DNA from: Corallium rubrum
Lineage: Eukaryota; Cnidaria; Anthozoa; Scleralcyonacea; Coralliidae
Length of the DNA: 64,000 bases
Assembly (NCBI GenBank): GCA_964035015.1
Contig: OZ036008.1
Location: 6,263,504 to 6,327,503, forward strand
Reading direction: 5' to 3'
Below, piece by piece: positions 17,401 to 63,998 of the stretch (the stretch's first letter is position 1; the number at the start of each line of letters is the position of its first letter). A program made the translations under genes and the position numbers. A model generated the notes under the pieces. That model did no database searches. It saw nothing but the letters and a program-made list of their open reading frames with translations, and had not been told where the DNA came from.

Positions 17401-31798
<14,398 letters not shown>

Positions 31799-32161: not shown

Positions 32162-35100
32162 ATGGCAGATGTTGATAAACACGAAATTAGAATAAGAGTT
32201 GTACTCAGAGATTGCGAGAAGCGAAAGTATCTTGTTGTAAAAGAAAAAACAAACGGAGCTTGGTTGTTTCCTGCAGACGTCGTACGACAGGGCAAAAGTA
32301 TTGAGGAAACTACACGAGTTCTCGTCAAAAAGGTTAGTTTGGTACTTTGGTGTTTAATATTTGACAACTACCACTTTACAAATGACGTACTTTCCTGCGG
32401 GAAAAGCTTGTTAATAAAACGTTTCAGAAGCATTACCCATTGAATTCTTTTTCTACTCTGTTGCTTCAGTTCTACTAGTGAATTACCTTGTAATTTGCTT
32501 TGAATTTCTCTTAAATATGCAAGTTTAAAATATAAGCGTTTCACTTTGTTTTAATATTATTGTAATATTGATGTAATATTGTATTTCAGTTTTGGTTTGT
32601 AAACATTCATAAACATAACATTTTGTAAACATAATGTCTCACTCAATTCCCAGCGTGACCATCCCCCCCCCCCCCCCTCCCCAGCATTTGATGGGCATTA
32701 CATTTTTGCATTAGAGTACAGTATTGCAAATGCCCCACCATGGGGTCAGCATAGCTGTACAAAATCCCCACAGAGGGGTCTTGAAATTGATGCAAATGCC
32801 CCACCCATGGGAATTTAAAGAAGCAGATGTTTATATTGTCAGAAAACTGAAGCAGCCATGACCATCCATATTATTAAACATAAACATATTTTTTTAAAAT
32901 AAAGGTCAAAAACTACTTTCAAACATCTCAACTATGTTGTCCAAGCCTTTTTCCCAAAGCCAGGAAGCCACAGACAGCACATCATTCCCCTCAAACTCCT
33001 GTAAATCCACCATGATTGATCACAATCACATGTGCATGGCATATTGGTGTATTTTATAATACGGTTAAAGAACGGTCAGTAGACATGCAATATTTTTGGT
33101 GCTCGTGAGTCACTGTACCAGTATTTTTATGGCAAAAATAAATATATCATAGTTTTATATGAAAAAGCTAGAAAAGTGGACAAGCATGTATAATAGTATG
33201 AAATATGTGGTGTGCCTTTATAAAAGATAGAATTTTCATAATTGAGTATAGACTTACAGTTCTTATTTTTGCCAGGTTTCTTTTCAAGAAAATTACAACC
33301 AAGTATATACTATTTAGGCACTTTAACAAATTCCCCACCCTGGGGATGACCTGCAGAGGCAAATGCCCGACCCTGGGAACAGGTGAATCGTCGAATGCCC
33401 TTCAAATGCCGGGGGGGGGGCATGGTCATGCTTGGAATTGATTGAGACATAACTATTGCAGAAACAACTCATAAATGTTTCGTTGCAAATTTTTAACAAT
33501 TTTTATGCACTTAATTTGAAAAAGATATTTTTCTAATATCACAGAATAGTAGATACACCAGAAATCTGATTTGTATGAAGACTGGCACTACAGTCATTTG
33601 CACCTAAGTGGAAAAAACACCTGTCAAAACATGTTCAAAACATGTTAACCATTTTGAAATTGACACCGTGGGATTGGTAAGATGTGATTTGCTGAGGGCA
33701 CAAACATGTATGTATTGAAAGGAAACTTTATAAAAAATTATGTTTTGAAGGGAAACTTTTATGTTTGACATTGACATTAGAACATATTGTTTTGATGTGT
33801 GGTGTTTCCACTTAGATGCAAACGACTGTATACCATCTTATACCATTTCTGGTAAGTCCCACTGGCAGTTGATGGATGTTGTAGAATGGTGATATTTGAC
33901 AACTTGACATGTGCTAACCTCATACCCAGGGATGCTGAGTAATTAAAGAGCCTGGGTATGGTGACAGTTGGTGTATCTATTATTCTGTCCAAATATACTT
34001 AAATCAGTGATGGATTTACAGTGGTGTGTGTGGGGTATGCATCCCCCTGGCCTTGGCCACAGGAGTGCAGGGGGGTGCCAATTGCCTTGTCAAATCCAAG
34101 TACATTAACTCATTCCTGTCCGGGGGCTTCCCCAGAGGTGAATAAAATCGTCTGGCGTTAGCCAGAATAAAATACTAAAGACCAATTCGGACAAGAAAGA
34201 GTTAAAGGATGCATTCATTCAATGTCCGTGTAAACTTCATGCTATCATAATTATGATTCATAGATAATTCATATATTAGTTAGAGTGTATCATATGATTC
34301 ATAGGTATAAAAAAAATTTTCTGGTGGGCTTCACCCCCCTACCCCACCACCAGCTTGGCCCCTGGACCCTGCTAGGGGCTGTGTCCCCAGACCCCTGCTG
34401 TACCCTGCCTCGGTCATGCCCCACACTGCAGGCCTGATCTCACTTCGCTCGCTCAACACCAGATCAAGCTGGATCCATCAATGTCTTAAATTGTTGAGTG
34501 GTTTATGTGTTAGGGTATGTATGTGGTAAGCTTGGAGGCCCCTTTGGAATCTACAGTACAATTTCTGTATGCCAAAAGTGCACTGAAAAAAAGGAGAATA
34601 ATTATAGAGCAACAACACAGTTGTGTCACTGCCGGACATTGTCTGAGGAAATGTCCCAGCTATTTTAAACTTTTACTTCACAATGTCAATGTCTGACACT
34701 TAACATAATCCTCATTCTTCAGCTTCTTACTCTATCCCCCAGAGATACTGTACATGCATTAGCCAACACATTCCCATTGTGCCTCTTCATCTATGTCGAT
34801 AAGTGATTTGACAAGATGTGAAAATGTTAAATCATTTGCTCCATTTGTCATGCAGGTTTTGGGAACATCAACTGCCATTGTCCTTGAAAGATTTCTTAGG
34901 ATTCATCATTTGATTAAACCAGCTACACTTGAGTTCATCTATCTTGCTAGCTTGGATGACAATGCTCAGTTAAATCTATTGGCTGAAGAAGACACATCTG
35001 GCAGCTCATATGATGATTCACATTCATGGTTCTCTTTCTCTGATCTCAAGAAACTGGAAAGTGATTCTAAAGAATTTGCAATTGAAGCTAAAGAACTTCT

Positions 35101-38100
35101 TAATGCAATTGAAAAAGGTTGGTCCATGAGGGAATGGGATGCTTTAACCCATTGCTGCCTTAAGGCTGTCTGAGAGCAGGGCCGCTGAGACCCAGGATAG
35201 GCCTGGGGGAAGGGAGTCGCCCCTAAACATCTCAGATATCAGAGTTCATTAAGTTGGGTTCAATTTGACAAACAGTTTCTGTACAAATTTTAATTAGTAT
35301 GATGGTGTATTGGATGGTGTAATCCATCCATGTTTTCCATAGAGTTATAGAAATACGGCTTTTAGCCTGAATCACCACTTGCGTTTTCAAACTATTATTT
35401 TATAAAATATAATAATTATACATATTAATTATATGTCTATCCATATAAATTCTTTCTGATTAGAAAACAAAGGAAGTCCTCCCTCCATTCTTACCGAACA
35501 AGATGTTGATTTGAGGTGACAACAGATATTTTAAATTGTGGTCTTTCATACATTGTTTATATAGTAATGTAGTGTACTACTGGTCCAGTTACAAGTATTA
35601 TACAGTACATGTACCTATCGTAATTACATGTACTATAAAATATTTTAGTCAGATTTTACCCATACACTTAGGAGAAATTTCTGACCCCCAGACACTGGAA
35701 TCAAACCCACAACCTGTTGAAAGATTTTTTTTGAAAGACCTGAGACAGAGGTTTCCCAACGATGACTCAATTGTCTGGCATTAAGTCAGTAAAGTACCAA
35801 AAGGGAATTCAGATTTAAGAGGGTTAAAGGATGGATGTCTAAGAGTTCTTCCAATGAAGAATAGGCTATTTTTGACTAGCTCAGCTGTTTAAGGTTTATA
35901 ATTTCCAATACTACCAAAATTAGTAGAGTGTCTTTTCCGGAAGAAAAAACGTTGTCTGGAAGGTGGCCAAACGTTTATGTTTGATGACATCAGTGACTCG
36001 TGAATGCTGTGTGGCGTGTGAATGAATACAACAAAATAGACAAATTCAAATTAATTTTGAACGTTTAACAGAATTCGTTGAATTTGTTCACACGCCACAC
36101 TGCATTCCTGAGCCATTAACATCACAAAACATACATGTTTGGCCGCCTTCCAGACAACCTTTTTTCTTCTGGAAAAGACACTCTACTGATTTTGGTAGTA
36201 ATTTCAAACATTTTTGCTATTTATGTTGCAGGAGAAAAAATGAAGAAGATGACAAAGTTATTCATAAGAAAGATTTGAAAGATTCCAGTAAAACCTTGAA
36301 TGGTTTTCTTGATACCCTGTTAGTAGCAGCAAAATTTGGGAGTGCAGGTTGTTATACCTATATTATTAGACTTTTTTTTATTGCTGGGTTGAGTGACTTT
36401 GCTATAACTGGCCTTTTTCTCTGTTGATCCATAGTTTATAATAGAACACATACGGTACATGGTTTGGAAACTCATCCAAAGTGATTGTTCTATGTTTTTG
36501 TTCAAGTTTATGGAAATTTGTGCAATTTCACAGTATCGTATTTTTTGTATAATAAAGCAGTCATCCAATAGCAATGCTTGGGTTTGAATAGTGATTTGCT
36601 TCATCGTCACGTGTTGTGGTCCATCGTCACATGTCCATAGAATTTACTTCCATATAAGGAACTGGCCATTGTCACTTGTCAGTTCAACATGAGCATGCTT
36701 CATGTTAAAAGACATTATGGAGCTTCCAAACCATGTATATGTTCTATTAACAATGGTTGATCCATGCAGTCTGCGGTATGTGCACACAGTATGCAGTATC
36801 TATGTGGAAGTGCCAGAGGAGTAATACTATGTACAGTACTGCTCAGAAATAACGGTTACCTAACAAACACCGAAGTCAAACCTAGGTTTAACCTCAGCTT
36901 AATTGTAATAATAACTTTGTTCAGTGTTAGTTAAACTGTCTCTAAATTACTATGAATCAAAATATGGACTGTTTTCTGTATTACTAGATAATTTTATATG
37001 TAAAATTTAAGAATAACATAATGTGTTTTTAGAGAAGAAATTTGTGGAAAGTTTGTTCCAAAAATCTGTGGGGTCAGCAGAAAAAAGGATAAATTATAAT
37101 TTGTTTGGAAAACTGATGACTGAGTTATTACCAACACCAGACTTCTTAAATATGCAAAATGTTTTCAGGTACAGTATATCTGTTTATGAATTATTTGTAC
37201 TTGTTTTGAGCAAAAAAAAATGGAGATGTGGAAATTGTATAGAACTGTGCTTTGTTGTAGTATTGCTATTCAGCTAGTATATTTTGCTAACAATGCAATA
37301 ATTATTTGTAATACCAGTACTGCATTATTGTGAGCTGTACTGCTGTATTACAATATTGTGGTATACCAGTTTTAAGGGGCTGATGTTTTAATGAAATCTA
37401 CCATCCACAATGATGAAAAACCTGAACTGTTCTGTGTTCACATTAGTTTGTGGCTTTTATGGCATGATGCATGTTTTTAACATGAAATGTCTACACTGTA
37501 CACCTGTAGCACATCTCTCCCAAAAGTCCACAGTGTGTCCACTGTGCAGGTGTATCAACGATTTCAGTATACATGTACTGTCAAAGACTCCAATGTATAC
37601 TGTGTATTGAAAAATCATGATACACTATATCAGAAATACACTATATCAGAAATATCAGTACAACTAATACTAGTAAGAAGTCATATCATCAAACTCAGGT
37701 GTGTGATTTGACACTGGGTCTTCAGTATGTTGGTGTATACTGACCATCCCCACCACTTAACTTAGTAAATATAATTACCCATTGCTGCCTTGAGTGTTCT
37801 CTCTTGGATAAGTAAAATTGTCTGGCGTTTAATAGAGTAAAACAATAAAGGGACCATTTTTGGCTGGCCCCGACAGGAATGGGTTAATACATTTTTTCTA
37901 CCATAAGTCTTATCAAGTACCACTTTTACAATTCAGAGCATTTGACACTGAAGACAAAAACTATCTACATGCCAATGATGTACTGTATGGCTTGGCAGCC
38001 ATGGATCCCAGAACAGTTCATGGAGGAGTTCCTGCAGAATTGCGTTGTAGATATGTTTTCAAATACTACAATGAAAGCCAAACTGGATATCTGAATCTTG

Positions 38101-41100
38101 AAGAATTCAAGTAAGTTGCAAAATAGTGTTAATAAATTGTGTTTTCTAGCCAGTCCTCTGGCCAGTGACCCAAATCTGGGTTTTCATGCTATTTTAAGTT
38201 GGTTTCAAATCTTGGTCCATTCTGGCAATTGAGGTACATGTACTGGGTGGAAATTTTAATGTAAAGTACCAATTTAAATATAAAAATAATAATATAATAC
38301 ATTATAATACACCATACCAATTAAAGTACAATTAAATCGCATTTGATCACATTTAACCATTAACCTATTACTGCTTAGGATGTCTGAGGGCTCTCCCTTA
38401 GATGAATAAAATTGTCTGGCATTGGACAAAGTAAAAAAATAAATGGACCAATTTTTGCTGGTTCAGCTTAATACTATACTGTTAACAAAAATGTTTTCTG
38501 ACCACCCCAAGCTTCACCTGTGTAGAAAGGTAGAGTGCTGTATACAGACAGCAGGCCTGCAAATAATTTTTTGACATAGGACAAATGTCAGGCCAGAGCA
38601 GAAAGTGGTCGGACATGTAGAAATTCTGGCCAGACGGACTAAGGGTTTCCCTACTTTTTATAAATACATCCACTTATCATGATGGCATACACGAGGAATC
38701 AGAATAGATTTTTTATCTCGGAAATTAATGTCAGTAAACTAGTACTACATAATGCATCATGGTCCATTTTAAAAACAATCTATAGGAATAAGGATTGACA
38801 CAAAAATGAACTTATTGTAATTATTGATCAGCTCAAACAGACAGAATTTCCTTAATTCCTTTCTGTATACCTTTTACTAGCGAGTATTAAATGGACAAAA
38901 CATCTTAAAGACAATAACTATTAACTCAGTAAGCTTGAATTGACCGGTCAAAATGACCAGCCATGAGGTTTGGGTGGACAATAACGCGCAATCATGCCGG
39001 ACAATGTCCGATGACCAGCTGTTATTTGCAGGCCCGAGACAGTGGTTTGGATAGAGCAAAGTGAAAGGGGGTAAGCCATCAAGATTTTTAACTTACAATG
39101 AAATGCTGAAATTTCAAGCAGAGCCCTTCATCAGAGTAAAACATGTACTGTATACTGTAAACATTTTACTCTCACTGATCAAAGGCTCCGCTAGAAATGT
39201 TGGTATTTCGTTACTAAAAATCTTAGTACCTGTAGTTTAAATGTTTTGCTCTATCCCTTTGAGGTCTGGACCTCTCCCCATGCTGAATAAAATCCTCTGG
39301 CGTTAGCCAGAGTAAAAATACCAAAGACTCATCTTCAGGTTTCAAAGGGTTAAAGAGATAGGTTTTAACCCTTTGAGGACTGGACCTGTCCCTGTACTGA
39401 ATAAAATTGTCTGGCATTAGGCAGATAAAATACTAAAGACTTCATCTTCAGGCTTCAAACAGCTATTTTTTTACCTGCTCACTTCTGTTTCAAGAGGAAA
39501 GAATGGGTTACAAAATCTTTAATAACTCATAATTCATAATTAGGATTGTCATTCCTAACTTACAATATTTACAATAACTAGTGTTAATTTAAATAGCTAC
39601 AGCAGTTGCCCCATGTCTTTCCTCATTCATTGGAGGCAGATCTTCCCAACTAAAATCATACAAATTAAAACACTCTACAGAATAAAGATTTCCATCATCT
39701 TCATTCCATCCTCCCATGACAACGATCACGTTGCCAGTTATCACTGCACTGCAGCCTCTTCTCTTGGTCTTCATCGCTGGCAACAAATCACTCTTCCCAT
39801 TGGTTATGTTATAACACACAACAGTGTCTAACACATTGTCTTCCTTGTCTTCCCCTCCTATCAAAATGATACTGTCTTTCCAGGCAACAGTTGCCATGTA
39901 ACAGACAGCGAAAGGCAATGGGGCCAGAGATTGAAAACCAGTGCTAGCAATATCGTACACTAACACAGTGTTGAGAGCATCACTTGGTAGATCTGTTGTT
40001 GTTCCCCCAACAATGAAAACCTTGTCACCAAAACATTGTGCACCATGGTTTGTTCTTGATTCTGGCATACGCCCAAGCGACATGCATGAATAAGGATGCA
40101 TAAAATGTACTTTATAGATATCCTTAACAGCCATACCACCAGCTACACCTCCAAAAATGTATAAATTATCTTTATAAACCACACTTGTATGTGCTCGGGT
40201 TGTTCGTGGAAGTTTGCACGGGAAGTTTCTCCATTTGGCCCCATCTTTCCTCAATGGTAGTACTTCCATTCCATCTCCACAGTCCCATCCTCCACAGACA
40301 TACAATTGACCTTGGTGGATGAACGACGATGACCACCACCGACTTGATGTCATTTCAGGGAGGCAAGTCCACTTTCTCGTTGTCCAGTTGAACATTTCAA
40401 CTGACTTCAGACTAGCTCCTCCTGCAATGACAATATCTCTTCTCTCACTCATATTAAGCTGACTGATGTTAGGTTGCGAATGAGCTAGAGATGGTCCAAG
40501 GAAGTGATCAGCATTTTCCAGCTTTTGCTTCATACCATTACATTCTTTCTTGATTGCTGCCATCTCACTCTTTACTTCATTTATCTGTGCTTTCATTTGC
40601 ATTTTCATATCGCCCATCTGTTTATTCATATCAACCATCTGCTTACGCATGTCACCCATATGACGTGTCAGGTCTCTGCTCAGATTCATCACTACCTCTT
40701 TGATGTCCGACACTTCTTCTTTGGTTTCTTTTAAATCTCTCTTCATCTTATCAATTTCGTTCCTGGTCACATAGCAATGTAGTTGTCGTTTTCCATACGG
40801 AACCTGCTTGCCACAGACTTCACATTTCCCTTGTCGATGATCACAATCGTTGATCTCGTGATCGGCTTGATCTTTTCGGTTGATGATCACCTCACAGCCT
40901 TCATTGGAACAATGTACTGGACTGAACTCACAATTTTGAACATGAGCTTCAAGCATTTCCATCTTTACACTTTCGGGGCATCCTCTGTGAAAATTATCAC
41001 AACGAATCATCAACTGTGATAAGAGATCGGTGACCAGTCTCGAAGGTCGTAATGTTGCTAATGTTAATGGTTCAATACACGTTGGACATCTCGGCGTAGT

Positions 41101-42334
41101 TTGCAGGTGACGTGTTATACAGGGTTTACAAAACGAATGTTCATTCCTGACACATTGCATTGGCTTTCTCAACACATTTAAACAAATAACGCAGTGGAGA
41201 TTCTGAGGAACAGCAGTTTGGAAACGATCATCATCGATTGATCCTTCTTCGATGGACGCCATTGCTGTATAATTTCTTCAGGCTTCAGTCGTTTGTAGAA
41301 ACACTCTGCTGGTTTATTACACAGTACATATTAAGAACATACGTTGTTTAGTTTGACCGCACGATTATTTTTTATTTCTTGGTAACTAAAGATGATTAAT
41401 TAAAGTAAAATTACGAGCAGAACCGTCTAGGTGTGTTATTCAATGGAGGAGCTTCTGTTACAGTGCTTCCACAACTGAAATCCAGATTTCCTGTTTGTTG
41501 TCCTGAAATTTCCTGATATTTCCTGATATTTTATTTAGATTTCCTTGACATTATCACGTGATATCTTTTCGCATGACCCACCCAATTATCGGGCCAAATG
41601 AGCCTACTCGCAGGCTGTATGACCATGAAATTAACAAAAATGATGAAATAGTCCAATAGCGCCTACATTTTTTTTGTTCTAACTTTAACTTAAAACGTTT
41701 TGTAAAAGCAATTGTAAAATACATATTCATATTTTCATAATCAATCCATATAAAGGACGCGTAGAATAGAGAATAGAGCTCGCGAACTCAACTATCACCA
41801 TGGTAACACAAAATCTAAATGTTCATTGGTTCCAGGTTCGTAACTATTTGTAACCCTACCCCTCCCTCCGACAGTAATGATGGGAAATAGAAACCAGGCC
41901 ACTGCAGGTGAACCGCGAACAACAGAAAGCCAAAAATCCACGCTAAAGTTAAAATTTCTTTAAAATGTTCTCGATCTACTTAGATTTTTTGAGATTTCCT
42001 GATTTTCCTGAGATTTCCTGATTTTCCTGAGATTTTAACTCATCCTGAAAATTTCCTTTTCAAGTCAGGATTTCCTGAGAATCAGGGAATTTCCTGCAAA
42101 GTGGAAACACTGTTCTGTTATCAATGTCAAGCCCCAGGGGGGTGGGGGGGGGGGGAGCGCGGGGGACGCGGTCAACCCACGGGATATATGCCATATCCCA
42201 ACGCATAACAGGGAAATTTGACTTGACAAGCTCGAGGGACGGGATTTTTGACACATAAAATGATCCTTAATACTATATTTTAGCACTTAGGGAGGGGTAT
42301 TTTGACCAACAACGCTATTTTACCGAGGGGCCCT

Positions 42335-42366
<32 letters not shown>

Positions 42367-54300: not shown

Positions 54301-57300
54301 TTGTTGTTAACCTTGGTTATAAATAACCTCATTGCGTAGCGATACTATTTCTAGTCACCAGTCCCCTATTGAAATTACCGTAGGGAGCCGGAATTTTGCG
54401 TGGCGGAGCGGAAATTTTCTTTGAAGTAATATTAGGCATTTCACTCGATTACATAGCATGTTCTAGGGATTTTTGATGAAGGAAAATTTGAGTGTATAGA
54501 ATATATACATTTTAAGACCAAACCGGGACCAGTTGCGAAAAATGAAACTACACAGGCCTTCCGGCAGGAATTGCGACCTTGCGATTCTAGTGCAACGCTA
54601 CAGAGGGCGTTGCCGAGAGCTTGATCGCGAGTTCTGTTAAGGTGGTAACGCCAGGAGAGAATTGGGTTTATTAGAAGTAATATTGGGCATTTCACTTGAT
54701 TATATAGCATGTTTTAGGGATTTTTCGTGAAGGAAAATTCGAGTGTATAGAATATATACATTTTAAGACCAAACCGGGACCAGTTGCGAAAAATGAAACT
54801 GCACAGGCCTTCCAGCAGGAATTGAACCCACGACCTTGCGACTCTAGTGCAATGCTCTGACCACTGAGCCACGGAGTCCGTTGCCGTGAGCTTGATCGCG
54901 AGTTCTGTATACATTAAGGTGGTAATGCCAGGAGAGAATTGAGTTTATTAGAAGTGATATTGGGCATTTCACTCGATTACATTCCTTCACCAAAAATCCC
55001 TATAAATTTTCTTTGTCTTGTGATTTCTCGGGTGGAACTAATTAGAAAAGACAAAGAATAATTCCGCTCCGTGCGCAAAATTCCGCCTAGTGGAAAACCG
55101 GCTTAATACAGTGATGCGAGGGGCCGGTGAATCACTCCCGAAAAAGTGTACGAGATTTGTTTCACAAAAGTGAATACAGTCGAACACCTTTGCGATCTTT
55201 AAGAGGTGTATTCGCCAAAAAATGGTTGCACAGTGGGGGGGGGGGGGGGGGGGGGGGGTACGCATGTGGTAACCAGCTTTTTGTGTCTATATACGTAGTT
55301 TGTTTTCACTATAATTCTATAAAACAATCAATACAGCACTGACTTAAACATGTTCTCTCTCGGTTAATCTCAAGTGTTGATTATTACTGTTATTAAAGAA
55401 AACTGCTCACTGGAGCCCAAGATAGGTGTCTGTTTCCACTTAAGAGGGGTGCCCGCTTTATAAAGAAATGGCCAGGACCTTGCCTCGTCCACTTAAGATT
55501 GGTGTTGGATTAAGAGAGGTGTCGGATTATGAGAGGTGTCAGATTAAGAGAGGTGTCGGATTAAGAGGGGTGTCCGCTTAAAAGGGGTTCGACTGTATAA
55601 AGTACTGTGCCTCACTTCTTTGTTCTCCCAGGCAACCACACTCTTTCCGTTAACAATAAAATTAGCCTGGGAACTTTTGAGAAACATCAACAAACATATT
55701 TTTTACTCTTATAATATACCCAATTACCACCTGGCATTACTAGGGATTTTTAGATGTATATATTCTACACTCAAATTTTCCTTCACCTAAAATCCTGAGA
55801 ACATGCTTGTAATCAAATGAAATGCCCAATATTACTTATCATATACCCAATTCTCACCTGGCATTACCACCTTAATATATATACGGAACTCGCGATCAAG
55901 CTCTCAGCAACGCCCTCCGTGGCTCAGTGGTCAGAGCATTGCACTAGAATCACAAGGTCGTGTCCTGGTTTGGTCTTAAAATGTATATATTCTACACTCA
56001 AATTTTCCTTCACCAAAAATCCCAAGAACATGCTATGTAATCGAGTGAAATGCCCAATATTACTTATAATATACCAATTTCTCACACATCTCTTGCTGTG
56101 TTTACTTTTGCAAACTCATACATGCACAAACGTTTGATGGTGGTGTTTTAATAATGTATAAAACTTCGTACATGTAATTAGACATGCAAGAATTCAGAAT
56201 TGTGAAAAAAAGTTAAAACTGATTTCAGAGTTCCATGAACTGTGAATTTCAGTCAAAATGGAAATACCTTCCCACCTCTGTTTCTGCAGTTTGTTGTGTA
56301 TTAATTAATTCTTTGAACGTTTTCATGGTGATACAGCAGTATAAATAAGTTTTGTGGAAACACCACGTAAAATATTTCTTTGCTAAGCTTTCAGCCTGTT
56401 GACTCAGGCCTTCATCATAGCAATGATGAAGGCCTGAGTCAACAGGCCGAAAGCTTAGCAAAGAAATATTTTACATGGTGTTTCCACAAAACTTATTTAT
56501 ATTGTTGTGTATTACTGTATTTCTGTAGCCGCTACAGAAATGTGAGAAAAATCTAGTGATAAAAGTTGCTTATTCATGATTTATATTTGTTGGTATTGAT
56601 TTGGGAGAAACATTCATTATATCATGATTAAATTCCGTGAAAGCTAAATGATATTTTTATTCACATTTTTCGACAAAAAATTTTCCTCACACTTCAGTAG
56701 CGACTACAGAAATACAGTAATACACAACAAACTACAGAAACGGAAGTGGGAAGGTATTTCCATTTTGACTGTTACAAAGTCTTTTTTGAGAATGTGCAAC
56801 AAATATTTATATTTTAAAAACTACACTGAACTACAGCAGTTGCACCACTTCTTTTGGTCTTCATTGAGGGAAGTTCTTCCCAGGTATAAAGATCCAAATT
56901 AAAACATTCTGCAGACTTAAGATAACTTTCTTCATTATTTTGTCCACCCATAACAACTATCATGTTTCCTGTGATCACTGCTGAACATTCTGCTCTCTTT
57001 TGTTTCATTGCTGGCAACATTTCACTTTTCTCGTTAGTTACATTGTATTTCACAATAGTGTTTAATACATTACCATTCTTATCCTGCCCTCCGAGTATTA
57101 TGATGTTGTCTTTCCAGGCAACAGTTGCCATGTCATAGACAGCAAACGGCAATGGAGCCAGAGTTTCACAAGAGTTCTTAGTAGTATCATACACTAACAC
57201 TGTGTTGAGAGAATCACTTAATGATTTACCTGTTGTCATTCCTCCAACTATGAAAACTTTGTCACCAAAACATTGTGCACCATGGTATACTCTTGGTTCT

Positions 57301-60300
57301 GGCATATGACCAACCACCTGGGAGGAATAAGGAGCTACTAATAATATTTTATAAATATCAGTAGTTGCTACACCACCACTGTGACCTCCAAAAATAAATA
57401 AACTATCTTCATAAACGACACATGTATGTCCATGGATCTTGTGTGGAAGCTTGACAGGAAAGTTCCTCCAACGTGCACCATCTTGCCCCAACTGAAGTAC
57501 TTTCATACTGTCACTCATCCATCCTCCACAGACATACATGTGACCACGATGGACAAACGACGATGAAAGCCAACGTCCTGACGCCATTGCTGGGAGGAGA
57601 GCCCACTGTCTTGTTGACCAGCTGAATAACTCGGCTGTCGGCAGACCAATCGTTTCACCATCAAACCCTCCAGCAATGATTACATCGCGTTTCAAACCAG
57701 CCGGAGACGATCTCTTTGCCGTCATTTCACAATTCATTTCACGTATCTTGCCTTCCATGGCATTCAACTGCTTCTTCATATCACCCATATGACGTGTCAG
57801 TTCTCTGCTCAGATTCATCACTATATCTTTGATGTCAGACACTTCTTCTTTGGTTTCTTTTAAATCTCTCTTCATCTCATCAACCTCGTTCCTCGTCACA
57901 TAGCAATGCAGTTTTCGTTTTTTATACGCAACCTGCTTGCCACAGACTTCACATTTCCCTTGTCGATGATCACAATCGTTGATCTCGTGATCAGCTTGAT
58001 CTTTTCGGCTGATGATCACCTCACAGCCATCGTTGGAACATTGTACTGGACTGAACTCACAATTTTGAACATGAGCTTCAAGTGTTTCCATCTTTACACT
58101 TTCGGGGCATCCTCTGTGAAAATTATCACAACGAATCATCAACTGTGATAAGAGATCGGTGACTACTCTCGAAGGTCGTAATGTTGCTAATGTTAGTGGT
58201 TCGATACACGTTGGACATCTCGGCGTAGTTTGGAGGTGACGTGTTATACAGGGTTTACAAAACGAATGTTCATTCCTGACACATTGCATTGGCTTTTTTA
58301 ACACATTTAAACAAATGGCGCAGTGGAAATTCTGAGGAACAGGACTCTGAAAACGATCGTCTTCGTAGTCTTCAACAGCCGAAGCCCTTCCTCCCTCTCT
58401 GGCGCCTAGCAGCCAATCAAATGCCTAGTTCAATACGAACTTGTGAACCTCTGAACGAAACTTCTGAACTTGCGAACGAACTTCTGAACATTTCCGTCAA
58501 AAGTAACCTGAAAGCGACTGTGATCCTAGTTGTATATTACAATATTAATTTAGTTTAAAAGATTTGTGTTTGGGAATGAGTACTAACAGTCTATGTGAAG
58601 CCATTTCGTGATCTTGTATGAAACTTCACCCAATATAATTGGAACTAATCATAACGAGAGGTGTATCCATAGTCAATCGAGATATGGTCTGGAAACTCCG
58701 CTAAAGTCTTTGGTCTATCTTTTTGTTAGCCTGTGTACAGCCGCTCTCCCGTGAGAAGAAAATTTTGGGGTTCGAGGCGATAATCGTGTTCCAGGTCACG
58801 TGGATATTCCACGGATTCGTGGAACCATATCTGATTGGCCCTTACACAGTCTTATTGTATTACACAAGTTTTAATTGGCTGCTGATAGCATAAATTATAA
58901 TTTGGTTGAACGAAGATTCAACGAACATACGAGCGAAGTAAACAACTGCCGTATCTCGTTCGATTCTTCAAATTATCTTCTGATAACACGTAATTTATGG
59001 CAGCCACTGATACTGAAACCAAGCAACTTCAAATATTACAGATTCAGATTGATTGTATAACTGAAATAGTATTTTCCAACGGACAATCTATCGTCGGTAA
59101 GACTACGATTTAAAAATACCTAATTTTCGACATTTATAGGAGTTGGTTGTTATTATTAATCATGGCACATCTGAATTGACAATTGTGATACTGGAATTAA
59201 AACATACAACGACATTTATGAATATGATACAGTCAGTCAATCGGACAGTGTGGACAAAACGCTATGTTTTTGAAGCCACACACGAAATTGTACTTGACCG
59301 TGGTCGTGAAGTCTGACCTTTGGTTTATAGTAAATACGCTGTTCAAAGACTCTCGTTCTCGCACACACGTCTTTTTGATCAAATACAGTTTTTAATTTGT
59401 TAGTTTCTTCACGACATATAATAAAGAAACTTTGAAAGTATTATGAAGTTATTCAATAATTATTATAATTTACTTAAAATCCACGTGACCTGGAACACGA
59501 TTATCGCCTCGAACTCACAGACACTCTCTCCACACAGGCTATCTTTTTGTTCGCCTTTATGCATTTTTGTGCACGGTGCACGGTCACTGAACACATTGTA
59601 TTTTAGTATAATGAACGAATTGTCCAATAGCAACGTTTCAGTTCAAGCACTCAACCGTGCTATTTAAATATTAATAAACCTAAAACAAAGGATGTGCACG
59701 GTGTAAGGTACGGTTCAACATAAAATCACTGCTCATTATAGGCGCTTTGAAGTTTGCCGAGTTTCTAGACCATATCTCGATTGACTATGGTGTATCACTT
59801 CTGAAAATCTCGTATATTAAAGTGCATATAAACCCAAATTGCAGCAACTAGGCATCTGGGGCCCGTGGGATTGATTACTTCGGGGCCCTTTCCGATTTTG
59901 TGACCGCATTTCTAGGGGGGTTCGGGGGCATGCTCCCCCGGAAAATTTTTGAATCTAGTCTCTGAAATGGCATTTCCTGCAATTTGAGAGCACTTTTCAG
60001 CAAAATCTAATCACTCACACTCCGATTCAAAATCTGTTAAAGTGGGCAGATTCTTTGAATAGATTCATAACTGCATTCGTTCCATTCCGCATTGCCTGCG
60101 CGCAGACATTTTCCCAATCTCCGCGGATTGGGTAAAAAGTCAGTGCACACTGCACATGTTAATAAGGGCACTTCTTGCCAAAATTTTTTTGTGTAAATAT
60201 CCCCTACCCCCCCCCCCCCCGGTCGCGCCGCCTGGGTGTCAAAGCATCCCCCACCCCCCAAGAGAAGATTTTCAGTGTAAGACTCAAGACTGTCAGACAA

Positions 60301-63078
60301 AGTGGTGGGCCCTGAAGGTGCGACAAACCAGTAGAAGGGTCCAGGGAAATGCTCCCCCAGGAAATTTTTGATTTTCTAATGCTCTGAAACGCTATTACCT
60401 GCATTTTGAGGGCAGTTATAACCATCAGAAAGGGGGGTTCTATGGAACCTACGGATCTCGTCACAAAATGGCCAGGGCCCTAATTAAATCATTTTCCTTG
60501 GGGCCCATGGGGTTTACCCACCCTTCCCAATATGTATTTGCGCCACTGCATGCCAAATTGTTTATCATCTGAACTACGTTCTACATAGAGCAAACAGTTG
60601 TTCAGTGAAATATTTTTTCGATTGGAGCTATTCAATTATTTTTTTGCGATTCGCATTTCTAGTATGGTAATGAGATGACTTCTATGTCGGCATTTGGCTT
60701 TCTTTCTCTTTTTGGCAAGATAAACTACTTGAGAATATTTGTGGAAAAACTCATACAATATGGAACATGTTGTTCAAACACACCATTAATGGAAGAATTG
60801 GGTCAGGTCACTCCTGCAAATAAATATTGTATAGATAATGATGACTACTTCGGCGTCATCTCATTACCATTTTGAAAACAAAAATCTGTTGCTACAATCT
60901 AAAAAATATTTCGTTGTTCAACTATTTGCCAAAGGTAGAACGTACTTAGATGGTAAAAAACTGGGGTTATTTGCACTTTAAAAATCCCCAAATCTCAGAA
61001 AATTCGTAAAAATCATCAAATCATCAGAAAATCATCAAATGATCTCAAAAACAATTCTAAAAAATCGCCCCCAAATCTCAAAAATTCCCCAAAACTTCCA
61101 AAAATAACAAAAATAAAAAAAAACCCACAGGATTTTGAAAATCCCAAAAATCTCGTAGTACACTTTTTTTGGAGTGATACACCCCTCAAATCATAATACG
61201 TATGATTTTAAAATCAAGTTAAAACCGAGAGTAACGGTTAACTCCAATTTACTTCCAACTTAAATTTCCTTGAATTCTTGTTTAGACAAATGGTCCAAGA
61301 TATTTATAAAATGAAAGGTGAAACCATATCTGAAGAACAGTTGGATCTGAAGGTCAAACAACAAATCAGGTGAGTTCGATATCTATGATGCTGACTTTAT
61401 CTACTGAATACATACATTGATCTCTAAATAAACAGGATAGACCCTTCCCTATGGCCAGCAGTCAAAGATTTCGTGGCAGTCCGCCATCTTACGTAGTGGA
61501 ACATATGACGCATTGCGGCCTTGGAACTTGTTCCCAATCCTGAAGTTGACCAGCATAAGCAATCTTGACGTCGCACGGTCAGATTATCCGGGGGTAGGAA
61601 TATTATGTGTGCTGTGCCGGGGGAGTCGGAAAAGCCGTAAAGCGAACAACAGATGGCGGCGGTTCGTTTAGTTTTCACTGTTTAACAACAAATACAGTCA
61701 AACGATGGCAAGTACACAACACGAAATATTGTTAAGGCATTAAGATTACTATAAAAGACTTGAAATTGAATTCTTCGTAGATTTTATAGCCTGTCTTTCA
61801 GTTTATATTATCGTGAAGTTTCTTCGTTGTCGGCACTGAAGAAAAACAACGATATAGCTCAGTAACAGAAACAAATACAAGAAATTAACGTCTTAAACCT
61901 TATTAAGTACTTCTTGTGTCCTTACATTCGTTTAAATTTTCTCGGCCATATTGGTGTACAATCTTTATCCTATGGGAATTTAGCTCTATTCTTATTCAAA
62001 AATTTCGTATTGTTTTACCACTCCAATGGACAGTGTGACCAGGTTTTTACAAAGGAAATTACTACATCACGTGGCAAAAAATACCAAATTTGGCAAAAAA
62101 TTACTACATCATACCACCCCCCACCCCCCACCCCCTCCTAAATAGCAAAAATAACGACATTGCAAATTTCATTACGTGACACTTTTTACAAAATTAAAAA
62201 TGCCAAAATTTACAGCATAAGTTATTGACATTAACAGAAATAGGAAATTAAGAAAACAAAATAACAAATACGCGTACTTAACAAAACATCGTACAGTCTT
62301 TGAAATAATACGATATAAAGTTGATAGAAATGGATAAAATAAAATATTTCAAAAGAAATTAATGAGATAAATGTCCAGCAAAACGGTGTCAGCGTTTTTT
62401 ATTTATTGCCTGGTTTCGAATTTATGACTTATTTTGTCCAAATGTTGGTCGAAAAACAGCATTTTTTACTTTGGTCGTCAATAAAATCGGCAAAACTTGA
62501 CATATCAAAAAACGCTGACACCGTTTTACTGGAAATTGATCTCGGAATCAAAGTACAAAAAAACATTTTGAACAAAATAAAACGCTATTTACTCGAGTCG
62601 CCCCGAGTGAAGCCCTCTGGTTTTAATTACAAAATTCACAACTATTAACGGTTTGTGTTTATCGCGAAACCAAAGACGCCATTGTATTCTACAAATTCAT
62701 AGCTTTCTAACGATATCTATTTTATTTTTGTGGCATCAATTCTGACGAATTGAGAGCGCTTTACAGAAATGACCCTGAAAACCTTAACGAAGACCTTAAT
62801 GAATTTGATAATATATTTTATAGAATTATAGCTAGAAACCAGCTGTAGTAGTTTAGCCAGGAAACGCTACCGTCCTTTGTCATGAACATCGTTTGTTTTT
62901 TCTTCAGTATTTTTGGAAACGATTTAAGCGATAAATTGCCTTTGAGGGAATTTCTGGATGGTCTTGGACAGCTTAAATTCCGTGGAACGTCATTGTTATT
63001 TCGTCTCCCCAGTCCTCTTTGTGATATCGCGGCACGCAAAAGTACGTCCGACACAGCTTCTCGCCTGGCAAAGAAAAG
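32162..63078 (+). CDS. Nudix-like/EF-hand multi-exon gene, 3' partial
   Basis: Unnamed animal gene. Exons in window: 32,162-32,332 (ATG), 34,856-35,117, 35,464-35,515, 36,232-36,347, 37,033-37,168, 37,937-38,110, 61,286-61,369 and 62,908-63,078; a GT donor follows, so it continues past the edge. All seven joins keep phase, giving 388 codons so far. Residues 1-110 look like a Nudix fold (VVLRD, KYLVVKEK, WLFPADVVRQGKSIEETT), but the positions of the REXXEE box read VLVKKV, so catalysis by that box is unlikely. Two degenerate EF-hand loops lie at about 265-325 (DTEDKNYLHAND and NESQTGYLNLEE). LEEFK|QMVQDIYKM continues across a 23-kb intron. The last exon has LPLREFLDGLGQLKFRGTSL. A phosphatase domain further on is a vague guess only; no function is assigned. 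Confidence 0.75.
32643..33441. repeat. MITE with CAATTCC(C/A)AGC(G/A)TGACCAT ends
   Basis: The ~45-bp inverted ends include TCAATTCCCAGCGTGACCAT and poly-C on the left and poly-G with CATGGTCATGCTTGGAATTG on the right. Interior blocks AATGCCCCACC recur. It lies in intron 1 of the Nudix-like gene. Confidence 0.7.
33591..33828. repeat. Tc1/mariner-like MITE with TA duplication
   Basis: Inverted ends CAGTCATTTGCACCTAAGTG and CACTTAGATGCAAACGACTG are flanked by TA on both sides (33,589-33,590 and 33,829-33,830). The next bases GAAA..CACC and GGTGTTTC also pair. TA target sites fit Tc1/mariner. It lies in intron 1 of the Nudix-like gene. Confidence 0.8.
34108..34204. repeat. TTAA-family MITE copy (with list of relatives)
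   Basis: TTAACTCATTCCTGTCCGG opens and GGACAAGAAAGAGTTAA closes; the core is GTCTGGCGTTAGCCAGA. Relatives with the same core or ends lie near 1021-1113, 5312-5390 (reverse), 8266-8369, 9651-9757, 17,025-17,119, 27,351-27,465 (reverse), 28,502-28,573, 35,725-35,827, 37,780-37,888, 38,358-38,470, 39,252-39,352 and 39,367-39,450. Confidence 0.75.
35909..36200. repeat. Fold-back MITE next to an acceptor site
   Basis: TACTACCAAAATTAGTAGAG and CTCTACTGATTTTGGTAGTA are terminal inverted repeats; complementarity continues through TGTCTTTTCC, GTTGTCTGGAAGG and GGCGTGTGAA. It ends 31 bp before exon 4 of the Nudix-like gene. Confidence 0.8.
36429..36756. repeat. CCATAG-family element, copy 1 (diverged)
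   Basis: Ends CCATAGTTTATAATAGAACA and TGTTCTATTAACAATGG, flanked by a perfect 5-bp direct repeat TTGAT (36,424-36,428 and 36,757-36,761). Subterminal TGGTTTGGAAACTC matches the copies at 48,899 and 58,667. Confidence 0.75.
38552..39034. repeat. hAT-like MITE, CAGGCCTGCAAATAA ends
   Basis: Inverted ends CAGGCCTGCAAATAA and TTATTTGCAGGCC. The interior contains GACCGGTC and GGACAAATGTC/GGACAATGTCC blocks like those of the element at 7726. Flanks ACAGACAG and CGAGACAG may be a decayed 8-bp duplication. It sits in an older interspersed repeat in the 23-kb intron of the Nudix-like gene. Confidence 0.7.
39589..41262 (-). CDS. RING / TRAF-zinc-finger / Kelch protein, copy A
   Basis: Likely E3 ubiquitin ligase of an intronless family; substrate unknown. 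The 557 residues start with a C3HC4 RING (C24, C27, C37, H42, C45, C48, C59, C62). TRAF-type zinc-binding repeats follow at about 85-160 (CDNFHRGCPESVKM, HCSNEGCEV, GKCEVCGKQVPYGKRQLHCY). Then come a coiled coil at about 165-255 with tandem MGDM(K/R)KQM units, and five or six Kelch repeats from about 280 to the end (IVIAGGASLKSVEMFNWTTR, LYVCGGWD, LYIFGGVAGG, VFIVGGTT, IILIGGED, VIVVMGGWNEDDG). The ATG precedes ASIEEGSID; the stop is TAA at 39,591-39,589. The gene lies inside the 23-kb intron of the plus-strand Nudix-like gene, in opposite orientation. It appears intact. Confidence 0.88.
   Translation of the reverse strand: MASIEEGSIDDDRFQTAVPQNLHCVICLNVLRKPMQCVRNEHSFCKPCITRHLQTTPRCPTCIEPLTLATLRPSRLVTDLLSQLMIRCDNFHRGCPESVKMEMLEAHVQNCEFSPVHCSNEGCEVIINRKDQADHEINDCDHRQGKCEVCGKQVPYGKRQLHCYVTRNEIDKMKRDLKETKEEVSDIKEVVMNLSRDLTRHMGDMRKQMVDMNKQMGDMKMQMKAQINEVKSEMAAIKKECNGMKQKLENADHFLGPSLAHSQPNISQLNMSERRDIVIAGGASLKSVEMFNWTTRKWTCLPEMTSSRWWSSSFIHQGQLYVCGGWDCGDGMEVLPLRKDGAKWRNFPCKLPRTTRAHTSVVYKDNLYIFGGVAGGMAVKDIYKVHFMHPYSCMSLGRMPESRTNHGAQCFGDKVFIVGGTTTDLPSDALNTVLVYDIASTGFQSLAPLPFAVCYMATVAWKDSIILIGGEDKEDNVLDTVVCYNITNGKSDLLPAMKTKRRGCSAVITGNVIVVMGGWNEDDGNLYSVECFNLYDFSWEDLPPMNEERHGATAVAI
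42120..42360. repeat. MITE with ATCAATGT(C/T)AAGCCCC ends
   Basis: Inverted ends ATCAATGTCAAGCCCCAGGG and CCCTGGGGCTTAACATTGAT frame 241 bp that includes poly-G. The inner part has CCATATCCC and GGGATATATGG. It lies between Kelch copies A and B. Confidence 0.75.
42477..42605 (+). pseudogene. Short paired-like HTH fragment
   Basis: A 42-residue frame containing FSKAGRTYNVGKALTDDL and RSIIDQIVENGGE. It resembles the N-terminal part of paired-type helix-turn-helix DNA-binding domains found in transposases and Pax proteins. It stops at TGA (42,603-42,605), 11 bp before the fold-back arm at 42,617. A related fragment begins at 45,258. Probably the remains of a transposase, though the resemblance is short. 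Confidence 0.45.
42617..42842. repeat. Fold-back transposon, left part
   Basis: 42,617-42,745 is an inverted copy of 45,066-45,237: both include TTTGAAACCC, GTCAAAGCTCCATAGCAACG, AACAATAACGTTCGG and AAACAACGCCTTATTAATTG, or the complements. A short internal hairpin (ACAATTGTCATATTAGTAAA with GCTTTTACCAATATGACAAT) reaches 42,842. The two parts may be the split halves of one fold-back element or the terminal repeats of a 2.6-kb unit. Confidence 0.7.
43000..43600 (+). pseudogene. Non-LTR retrotransposon reverse transcriptase remnant
   Basis: Broken plus-strand reading shows VWGNASKEKLNDLLKLQKRS followed by ARIILEASTDESSVELFKKL and GWIPIHNLIK, the typical C-terminal part of reverse transcriptases of LINE-type elements. 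It is split by stops and shifts (a TAG follows IKL). No 5' end or endonuclease domain is seen. Confidence 0.75.
43861..44812. repeat. Nested cluster of three small DNA elements
   Basis: Three elements sit between the two halves of an AACGTTTCGAGCGA-type repeat (43,813-43,860 and 44,813-44,880). First, ends ATAGGCGTAGAG/CTCTACGCCTA (about 43,866-44,337). Second, ends CAGGTGATCTGA/TCAGATCACCTG (about 44,339-44,603). Third, ends CCTGGTACTCATATGTCG/CGACATATGAGAACCAGG (about 44,612-44,808), with TAA on both sides, which fits a PIF/Harbinger MITE. TATGGTAAA occurs on both sides of the first two. Confidence 0.65.
45066..45237. repeat. Fold-back transposon, right part
   Basis: Inverted partner of 42,617-42,745 with high identity. 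It contains a 10-15 bp insertion (CTCCATTCGACCACC region) that the left arm lacks. 2.2 kb of other debris lies between the parts. Confidence 0.7.
45258..45455 (+). pseudogene. Second short paired-like HTH fragment
   Basis: A 65-residue frame starting MEYKINAFGRSYRSELPLSD. The GR(S/T)Y....L(S/T)DDLR..II pattern matches the fragment at 42,477. The remainder (KPKTSYSKQTLP...) is not recognised. It begins 20 bp outside the right fold-back arm and reads away from it. A transposase remnant is the best guess. Confidence 0.4.
45478..45753 (+). pseudogene. C-terminal tail of a retroelement polyprotein
   Basis: The 91 residues include KPLKERRNDLCIDLIKNMLQ, PTHKLRGLLPD and CRAERFKCS. This resembles the ERR..LC...F/I..HKLH.LLP ... 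R..RFK.S ending of LINE-type reverse transcriptase proteins. No upstream RT is attached in frame. Confidence 0.55.
45810..45896. repeat. Perfect 40-bp hairpin
   Basis: Arms 45,810-45,849 and 45,857-45,896 are exact complements with a 7-nt loop (GCTATTG). The arm starts CATATGAACATGTAAGCACA. The lack of mismatches suggests recent origin or ongoing correction. Confidence 0.9.
46223..47797 (-). CDS. RING / TRAF-zinc-finger / Kelch protein, copy B
   Basis: A 524-residue paralogue of the copy at 39,589 with the same order of parts: C3HC4 RING (HCAICLNVLKKPMQC, SFCKPCITRHLQTTPRCPTC), TRAF-type zinc fingers (CDNFRRGCPESVKM, GKCEVCGKQVTYGKRQLHCY), a shorter coiled coil (MKEQMGDMKEQMNAMEGK) and Kelch repeats from about 240 (VIIAGGYGETFLWTVEVFSW, MYVCGGMG, LFIFGGVSDG, VAIFGGTT, IIILGGKDKNG, TVVLGGYNNEE). 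ATG at 47,797 precedes ASADEGYED. The frame is intact and intronless. Its 3' flank resembles that of copy C, so segmental duplication explains the family better than retrocopying. It lies inside the 23-kb intron of the Nudix-like gene. Confidence 0.88.
   Translation of the reverse strand: MASADEGYEDRFQSAVPQNFHCAICLNVLKKPMQCVRNEHSFCKPCITRHLQTTPRCPTCIEPLTLETLRPSRVVTDLLSQLMIRCDNFRRGCPESVKMETLESHVQNCEFSPVHCSNDGCEVIISRKDQADHEINDCDHRQGKCEVCGKQVTYGKRQLHCYVTRNEVDEMKKDLKETKKEVSDIKDIVMNLSREVTRHMGDMKEQMGDMKEQMNAMEGKIREINCEMTAKRSSPAGLKRDVIIAGGYGETFLWTVEVFSWTTRQWTLLPAMTSERCFSSSFVHRGHMYVCGGMGSDSMEVLQLGRDGARWRNFPVKLPHMIYGHTCVVYEDSLFIFGGVSDGEVTTDIHKILLVAPYSSQVVGHMPIPRADHGAQCFGDKVAIFGGTTTGDSRGSLNTVLVYDITNKCCKTLAPLPFPVCSMATVAWKDNIIILGGKDKNGNELNTVVKYNVTDEKSEMLPSMTHKRERCSAVITGNMTVVLGGYNNEERYLKSAECFNSDLYTWEELAPIKTKRSGATAVVV
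48259..48702. repeat. MITE with GGCCATATAAAAAAAATTCC ends
   Basis: 34-bp inverted ends, GGCCATATAAAAAAAATTCC continuing TTGATTCTCATCAC on the left and the complement on the right. Flanks are TAA on both sides (GTTAA|GGCC and GGCC|TAAAC), which fits a PIF/Harbinger-type 3-bp duplication. The interior is rich in ATATAAAATATAAA. Confidence 0.8.
48899..49167. repeat. CCATAG-family element, copy 2
   Basis: Ends CCATAGTCAAGCGAGATATG and CATATCTCGATTGACTATGG, extended by GTCTGGAAACTC/GAGTTTCCAGAC. Flanks TTGAT and TTGTT look like a 5-bp duplication with one change. The 269-bp element has an AT-rich interior. Confidence 0.8.
49948..50125. repeat. CACAGGGAG-family element, right end lost
   Basis: Starts CACAGGGAGCCCATCTTGGC and matches the complete copy at 51,262 through GGAAGCGGGAAAAAAGGCGG and a poly-G run, then diverges after GAGAGGAAAAAATAT. 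Confidence 0.65.
50154..50456. repeat. Fold-back element, CACAGAATAG ends, 7-bp duplication
   Basis: Inverted ends CACAGAATAGTAATACAACC...AACTC and GAGTTGG...CTATTCTGTG are flanked by ACCAAAC on both sides. The inner arms are highly GC-rich, with tandem GGATGGCGTA units and CAAGTTCCCCCGGCAGTTT facing its complement around a ~20-nt loop. Confidence 0.85.
51262..51495. repeat. CACAGGGAG MITE, complete, 7-bp duplication
   Basis: Inverted ends CACAGGGAGCCCATCTTGGC and GCCAAGATGGGCTCCCTGTG are flanked by GTTTTCC at 51,255-51,261 and 51,496-51,502. Partial copies are at 49,948, 30,785-30,880 and 51,090-51,145. Confidence 0.85.
51816..52345. repeat. ~265-bp tandem duplication with palindromes
   Basis: Two tandem copies starting near 51,823 and 52,087, each containing ACAACACGAGCGGCCGTGTT, then TACAATCACGAGCCGAAGGC with a complementary half, GCGAGTGTTGTAAAC, and the trailing TGACGTAATTTCTGAAATTG. 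The second copy has an extra inverted TTACAAGCACTAGTGG segment. Confidence 0.8.
52500..53185 (-). pseudogene. Non-LTR reverse transcriptase remnant, minus strand
   Basis: Two frames cover the C-terminal part of a LINE-type reverse transcriptase. 53,182-52,784 has SKTLGVIVDQHLNWKSN, KKITSGLCALRRLREF, NAIVQPYFNYCCEVW and LQKRHNRAARII. 52,751-52,500 has MFKILNDMGPKCLNDLF and GASIWNSLPANIRES. A frameshift after GWDLGTT separates them. The upstream palm domain and 5' end are missing. Confidence 0.85.
54425..54950 (-). mobile_element. Two tandem tRNA-derived SINE copies
   Basis: The second copy (about 54,675-54,950) on the minus strand has an A box in TGGCTCAGTGG (54,871-54,861) and a B box in GGGTTCAATTCC (54,829-54,818). 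These are followed by a shared body with CGCAACTGGTCCCGGTTTGG and AATATATACATTTTAAGACC or its complement. The first copy (54,425-54,670) has lost part of the tRNA-like head. Copies repeat every ~250-275 bp. Confidence 0.75.
55430..55600. repeat. GATTAAGAGAGGTGTCG short tandem repeat
   Basis: Six or more 16-18 bp units such as GATTAAGAGAGGTGTCG. Related wording (GTGTCCACTTAAGAG) recurs at 26,615-26,645 and 27,030-27,080. A poly-G run lies nearby at 55,236-55,258. Confidence 0.65.
55735..56080 (+). mobile_element. tRNA-derived SINE copies, plus strand
   Basis: Inverted relative of 54,425-54,950: GTGGCTCAGTGGTCAGAGCA followed by TTGCACTAGAATCACAAGGT, then AAAATGTATATATTCTACAC and the 3' part. 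The B-box region is deleted. A partial copy of the 3' part precedes it. Confidence 0.7.
56264..56762. repeat. Double fold-back next to Kelch copy C
   Basis: Outer arms: GGAAATACCTTCCCACCTCT and its complement at about 56,743-56,762, continuing through CAGTTTGTTGTGTATT. Inner palindrome 56,340-56,505: arms of about 78 bp, nearly perfect, with CTTTCAGCCTGTTGACTCAG and GCCTTCATCAT at the centre. The inner unit ends in GCCTGATGAAGGCC-type wording common in interspersed repeats. Confidence 0.8.
56814..58388 (-). pseudogene. RING / TRAF-zinc-finger / Kelch protein, copy C, start lost
   Basis: Third paralogue. The coding frame aligns with copy B from ASAVEDYEDDRFQSPVPQNF through RING, zinc fingers (CDNFHRGCPESVKM, GKCEVCGKQVAYKKRKLHCY), coiled coil and Kelch repeats (VIIAGGFDGET, MYVCGGWM, LFIFGGHSGG, VFIVGGMTTG, IIILGGQDKNG, IVVMGGQNNEE). 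The codon matching the start of copy B is AGG (58,388-58,386), not ATG, and an in-frame TAG lies a few codons further upstream. The next Met lies inside the RING (KKPMQCV), which would destroy it. The body has no stop or shift, so the loss is recent, or an upstream exon or non-AUG start rescues it. The C-terminus ends VVQCSF instead of VVV. Confidence 0.8.
58667..59790. repeat. CCATAG-family element, copy 3, with nested insertion
   Basis: Ends CCATAGTCAATCGAGATATG and CATATCTCGATTGACTATGG, flanked by TGTAT on both sides. At 58,728-59,538 an 811-bp second element interrupts it, with ends AGCCTGTGTACAGCC and CCACACAGG and a 13-bp duplication CTATCTTTTTGTT (58,715-58,727 and 59,539-59,551). The nested element has inner arms GGCGATAATCGTGTTCCAGG and complement near 58,779 and 59,490. 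Confidence 0.8.
59830..60560. repeat. GGGGGCATGCTCCCCCGG-type repeat debris
   Basis: Two copies of a repeat with GGGGGCATGCTCCCCCGGAA, TTTTTGAAT and GAAATGGCATTTCCTGCA (about 59,915-60,000 and 60,340-60,420). Relatives lie at 43,975-44,070, 30,455-30,530, 15,105-15,150 and about 5,890-5,940. No gene is recognised here. Confidence 0.55.
62371..62535. repeat. Fold-back, CCAGCAAAACGGTGTCAGCG ends
   Basis: CCAGCAAAACGGTGTCAGCG with TTTTTTAT on the left pairs with AAAAAACGCTGACACCGTTT and TACTGG on the right. It lies in intron 7 of the Nudix-like gene. Confidence 0.8.
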
Positions 63079-63137
63079 GTGATTCAAGCTTTTTATTTAT
63101 GGTATTGAAGTACTTCATTTATGAGTTTTTAATCTAG

Positions 63138-63998
<861 letters not shown>

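Follow-up and report, generated by a model that had tools for sequence, protein, structure and literature searches.

A candidate gene of Corallium rubrum in which a probably dead Nudix-like domain and EF-hands may be joined to a PPP-type phosphatase

PPP phosphatases are thought to draw their specificity mostly from separate partners. Calcineurin (PP2B) is composed of a catalytic A subunit and an EF-hand B subunit. The ribosomal protein mL46 has a non-catalytic Nudix fold and is not known to carry an EF-hand or a phosphatase.

In PPEF/PP7, an IQ motif precedes the catalytic domain on the N-terminal side, and the EF-hands follow on the C-terminal side (PMC1885993, PMC11559042). Non-catalytic Nudix domains are typically found within proteins of several domains, where their binding partners are small molecules or other domains; in the same review of the Nudix clan DBC1 is listed as non-catalytic, and a search of the review for the terms EF-hand, protein phosphatase and calcineurin gave no hit (PMC5389931). 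CCAR1/DBC1 is described as consisting of a catalytically inactive Nudix domain, an inactive EF-hand and an S1-like domain (PMC4287135). NUDT9 is inactivated by changes to REFGKK or RILGEE, and in sea anemone TRPM2 the double changes of the Nudix box to AILGEE or AEFGKK impaired the hydrolysis of ADPR and left gating by ADPR unchanged; invertebrate TRPM2, an ion channel, retains a canonical, active Nudix box (PMC6461439).

The stretch of Corallium rubrum DNA analysed here, hereafter the window, comprises 64,000 bases, none of them N, at positions 6263504-6327503 of contig C30 (genome 474 Mb, 312 contigs). On its + strand, eight phase-compatible exons lead from the ATG at 32162, which has an in-frame stop upstream, to a donor at 63078 and amount to 388 codons plus two bases. 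This agrees with the preliminary description, in which eight exons had been joined in phase over more than 30 kb. Directly after the window the assembly holds 5,000 N (64001-69000 in continued coordinates), the open frames at about 69.7-72.9 kb are read by eye as a LINE-type reverse transcriptase, and beyond them the same strand carries exons with the features of a phosphatase. We consider it reasonably probable that all these exons belong to one gene of about 47 kb, predicted to encode a dead Nudix domain, a four-EF-hand module like that of the neuronal calcium sensors and a C-terminal PPP phosphatase, their membership in one transcript being presumed. The features are as follows.

32162-32332, + strand: exon 1, with the start codon, the first Nudix-like half and VLVKKV at the Nudix-box position (from the sequence, splice sites, Nudix match and box alignment)
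34856-35117, + strand: exon 2, second Nudix-like half, leaving in phase 1
35464-35515, + strand: exon 3, linker, taken for its best splice score; the least certain exon
36232-36347, + strand: exon 4, linker, then a helix ahead of the EF-hands
37033-37168, + strand: exon 5, first EF-hand, poor
37937-38110, + strand: exon 6, EF-hand loops DTEDKNYLHAND and NESQTGYLNLEE
38111-61285, + strand: intron 6, 23 kb, containing three - strand RING-TRAF-Kelch ORFs
61286-61369, + strand: exon 7, EF-hand exit helix KQMVQDIYKMKGE and linker
62908-63078, + strand: exon 8, last EF-hand (poor) and linker toward the phosphatase, ending in phase 2 at a donor
75300-75406, 75504-75606, 76401-76540, 77053-77145, 77852-77936 and 78918-79043, + strand: predicted phosphatase exons, phase-compatible to the stop

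The 169 aa encoded by exons 1-3 and the start of exon 4 match NUDIX (PF00293) with an E-value of 2.4e-4 and 21.6 bits, against a gathering score of 21.1, and the match covers positions 3-130 of 134, which is nearly the whole profile. The statement that this segment aligns with the Nudix family is thus upheld; when all 388 aa are searched, the score is lower, at 18.5 bits (E 0.002), and lies under gathering. In the PDB, five rows were obtained for the Nudix part at E up to 10, namely mL46 (0.035), a kinase (0.52), ribosomal L46 (0.97), a kinase (1.0) and the MutT/NUDIX protein 3id9 (1.4); some of the Nudix proteins in this set are no better matched than the kinases. In the alignment to 3id9, which is a weak match, REMREE of the latter lies opposite VLVKKV, a sequence that departs from the Nudix box REUXEE; the residues required of a hydrolase therefore appear to be lost, as had been noted for the glutamates of REXXEE. 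Together, these observations support the prediction of a catalytically dead Nudix-like domain in frame with the EF-hands.

The EF-hand-like loops that had been reported to follow the Nudix part are confirmed by a match of the 388 aa to EF-hand_6 (33.1 bits against a gathering score of 25, E 3e-8), with EF-hand_7, EF-hand_8 and EF-hand_1 all under their own gathering scores. The closest PDB structures for the array are NCS-1 (E 1e-6), hippocalcin (7.8e-6) and KChIP1 (2.6e-5), and calcineurin B is also matched, at an E-value of about 0.009. Four EF-hands may be recognised by eye, namely a poor one in exon 5, DTEDKNYLHAND, NESQTGYLNLEE and a poor one, GNDLSDKLPLRE. The EF-hands had previously been called degenerate. 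Graded by eye against the EF-hand loop consensus, the two outer loops are indeed poor and DTEDKNYLHAND has Lys at position 5, but NESQTGYLNLEE is near canonical, so that the term applies to only part of the array.

Some of the exon boundaries are less secure than others. The donor of exon 2 at 35117 scores 2.3, and without splicing the frame of this exon is open as far as a stop at 35171-35173. For exon 3 there are 16 candidates that restore the phase, of which 35464-35515 has the highest summed splice score (4.2, the next being -1.0); an exon 3 at 35672-35750, used in the first model, was dropped in its favour on the splice scores. It is also possible that exon 2 is spliced straight onto a longer exon 4 beginning at 36072. 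Two further donors, at 36347 (-1.2) and 37168 (1.0), are weak by the matrix of this analysis.

Exon 7 was sought among open exons at 38150-63000 that accept phase 2 from exon 6, with an acceptor score of at least 2 and a donor score above 3. Five rows were found, led by exons 8 and 7. As a control, all phases of both strands were searched for summed scores of at least 9. The + strand yielded exons 7 and 8 alone, and the - strand four rows distributed over three sites, two of these sites being read as pieces of the Kelch ORFs. Since the - strand is as rich as the + strand, the splice score alone is no proof of exon 7, and its support comes mainly from its phase and from a reading that continues an EF-hand helix. 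The NCS-1 alignment crosses the junction of exons 6 and 7, and that of hippocalcin extends into exon 8. Moreover, the E-value of EF-hand_1 changes from 0.03 with exons 4-6 to 0.0023 with exons 6-8, a modest gain that supports splicing across the 23-kb intron. A search of Pfam with exon 8 alone yielded nothing at E up to 10. Another piece, at about 62720-62840 (GINSDELRALYRND...), previously joined to exon 8, was dropped after exon 7 was found; with exon 8 it had matched only T4_Rnl1_C (E 0.09, 13.5 bits, the cut-off being 27).

Intron 6 also holds three similar intronless ORFs on the - strand, at 39589-41262, 46223-47797 and 56814-58304 (557, 524 and 496 aa), with matches to a TRAF-type zinc finger, Kelch repeats and RING, the third being without the RING start. 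They have the appearance of a local family of E3-ligase-like genes. Elsewhere in the window, a DDE_Tnp_4 transposase with HTH (5-754, + strand, E 3.2e-48) and a YqaJ-like nuclease ORF (1622-2452, - strand, E 9.5e-9) are probably genes of mobile elements. A tRNA-Ala(AGC) is found at 21907-21980 (- strand) by both ARAGORN and Rfam, and a second tRNA match at 54811-54875 (- strand), found by Rfam only, may be a tRNA-derived repeat. A long simple tandem repeat (63133-63990, + strand) extends nearly to the edge of the window, up against the 5,000-base N run of the assembly. The genome as a whole has a single match to the GFP family; in the PDB, the best hits of its exon are red and green fluorescent proteins (310 distinct sequences, best E 3.6e-20), which come mostly from anthozoans and so agree with an anthozoan cnidarian as the likely source of the DNA.

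As had been stated, the gene runs off the edge of the window: exon 8 closes with a good donor (score 4.5) in phase 2, so that one or more exons must follow. The phosphatase exons span C30:6338803 (75300) to C30:6342546 (79043), an AATAAA lies after their stop, at 79801, and two of their ends (76540 and 79043) were set by eye, the donor at 76540 being under the threshold of the scan. When joined, they encode 217 aa, which match Metallophos (PF00149) with an E-value of 4.4e-19 and 70.1 bits over positions 55-190 of 191; this is the only Pfam family found at E up to 1. In the PDB, 92 distinct sequences are matched by the 217 aa at E up to 0.001, and the best 60 of these 92 are all PPP phosphatases or fusions thereof (E 2.2e-28 or better), with 117 bits for BSU1 and about 111, 106 and 104 for calcineurin A, PP5 and PP1, respectively; a two-domain calcineurin construct ranks first through its summed score. 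The PPP motif GNHE and the two later His motifs, VHGG and RAHE, are present. Judged by its sequence, the product of these exons covers about two thirds of a PPP-type Ser/Thr phosphatase, counted from the C-terminus. Neither GDxHG nor GDxVDRG was found in the readable sequence, and the place where they are expected is occupied by the 5,000-base N run. Because the first phosphatase exon starts in the middle of the domain, the exon preceding it should lie within the gap or close by; the start of the catalytic domain, and the splice that would connect it to exon 8, are putative. A whole-genome search for Metallophos gave 12 matches, none of them at this locus, by a scoring that proceeds exon by exon, and the exons here are short.

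The question of one gene or more is approached through the two places at which the exon series might be divided. That exons 1-8, perhaps with more in the gap, form a dead-Nudix/EF-hand gene neighbouring a PPP gene that starts within the gap is suggested by the N gap and the LINE-like element lying between exon 8, the splicing partner of which is unseen, and the first phosphatase exon. On that reading, the Nudix-EF protein would serve as an adaptor linked to calcium, which comes near to the idea of the preliminary description. We regard this arrangement as unlikely, considering that the two parts share strand and order and are each consistent in phase, that exon 8 leaves in phase 2 at a good donor, and that the first phosphatase exon begins in mid-domain. 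A division farther upstream, by which exons 1 and 2 would be a short Nudix gene of their own ending at 35171-35173 and an EF-hand gene (with or without the phosphatase) would start downstream, could draw on the open frame of exon 2 and on the uncertainty of exon 3. It is nevertheless quite improbable: the donor of exon 2 scores 2.3, and the best-scoring exon 3 restores the phase. Moreover, neither AATAAA nor ATTAAA occurs in 35119-36240, which argues only weakly in a stretch of 1.1 kb with a background of 1.8 per kb, and there is no ATG-led exon between exons 2 and 4 with a donor score of at least 0 that can be joined to exon 4. When searched in the genome, exons 2 and 6 each match only themselves, so that these single-copy exons provide no paralogue to arbitrate between one gene and more.

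It may further be asked whether the locus has been broken by repeats and by loss of the catalytic start, in which case the full protein would not be made. The LINE-like element and the N gap in the middle of the locus, and the two early phosphatase motifs that were not found, are what a decaying gene might display, but all 14 of the 14 exons are open and in phase within each part, and the later catalytic motifs are intact; decay is accordingly given a very small probability. Much the same module pair, an inactive Nudix domain with an inactive EF-hand, is an unusual feature of CCAR1/DBC1 (PMC4287135), and the gene might on that ground be taken for an orthologue. This is highly improbable, because the DBC1, S1-like and SAP families are all absent from the seven Pfam rows obtained at E up to 10, and the domain order differs from that of CCAR1 and CCAR2 (DBC1), a phosphatase following here. 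Membership was rejected on the lack of these matches and on the position of the sole S1-like match in the genome (PF14444) on another contig, at C22:5560638-5560799; that match (40 bits) may itself mark a CCAR1 orthologue. The genome search with PF14443 had no match anywhere, controls included, and is hence uninformative. The preliminary description had recognised no named family. This is right in so far as CCAR1/DBC1 does not fit, but it passed over CCAR1/DBC1 as a known family of dead-Nudix/EF-hand proteins.

The single gene that we favour may be compared with the other systems in turn. With PPEF/RdgC (PP7) it would have in common a PPP catalytic domain and EF-hands in one polypeptide; in contrast, the EF-hands here are upstream of the phosphatase, the predicted Nudix fold comes first, and the frame stops at 79043. 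No IQ family is among the seven Pfam rows of the 388 aa, which come from a general search. The phosphatase part has calcineurin A as one of its best PDB matches, but the EF-hand module would here be fused in one chain, by a putative join across the gap, and is better matched by sensors of the NCS type than by calcineurin B. TRPM2 with its NUDT9-H shares a Nudix fold inside a larger signalling protein, the Nudix box being vestigial in the vertebrate form. The mitoribosomal mL46 provides the best PDB row of the Nudix part.

In the literature searched, no description of a Nudix-EF-PPP architecture was found; eukaryotic protein databases may contain unnamed relatives, and proteins of this architecture may occur in invertebrate databases. 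NCBIfam yielded no family at E up to 1. Pattern matches numbered 16 in viral contigs and 170 in prokaryote contigs, and none was confirmed as a relative, as expected for an animal gene.

In the proposed working of the one-gene protein, the PPP phosphatase would be the output module and the EF-hand module N-terminal of it a built-in subunit of the calcineurin B type. Through the latter, and mainly via its single near-canonical loop, changes in Ca2+ would be translated into activity or into access of substrates. The Nudix head, presumed to be non-cleaving, might bind a nucleotide-type ligand or a partner protein and so set when or where the phosphatase works. Phosphatase activity, Ca2+ binding and any Nudix ligand are all functions that we infer from the sequence. 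The preliminary description had suggested a pseudo-enzyme acting as a sensor or scaffold; the dead Nudix domain joined to EF-hands accords with it, but a likely effector, encoded by the PPP exons downstream on the same strand, had been missed, and it is more plausible that the Nudix part forms the regulatory head of an enzyme than that it is an isolated pseudo-enzyme. A more specific reading, which we hold to be speculative and rather unlikely, is that of a phosphatase with two inputs, in which the dead Nudix domain detects a metabolite of the nucleotide type (such as ADP-ribose, NAD or an inositol pyrophosphate) and, jointly with the fused calcium sensor, gates one PPP domain. No such two-input arrangement for PPP phosphatases was found described in the literature searched.

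Should two genes be involved, what is left is a dead-Nudix and EF-hand protein. If the single chain is real, with a calcium sensor and a retired Nudix domain on the same polypeptide as the phosphatase, it would be an unusual case among animals of built-in regulation, and it would make it possible to test directly whether dead Nudix domains are metabolite sensors outside TRPM2 and DBC1.
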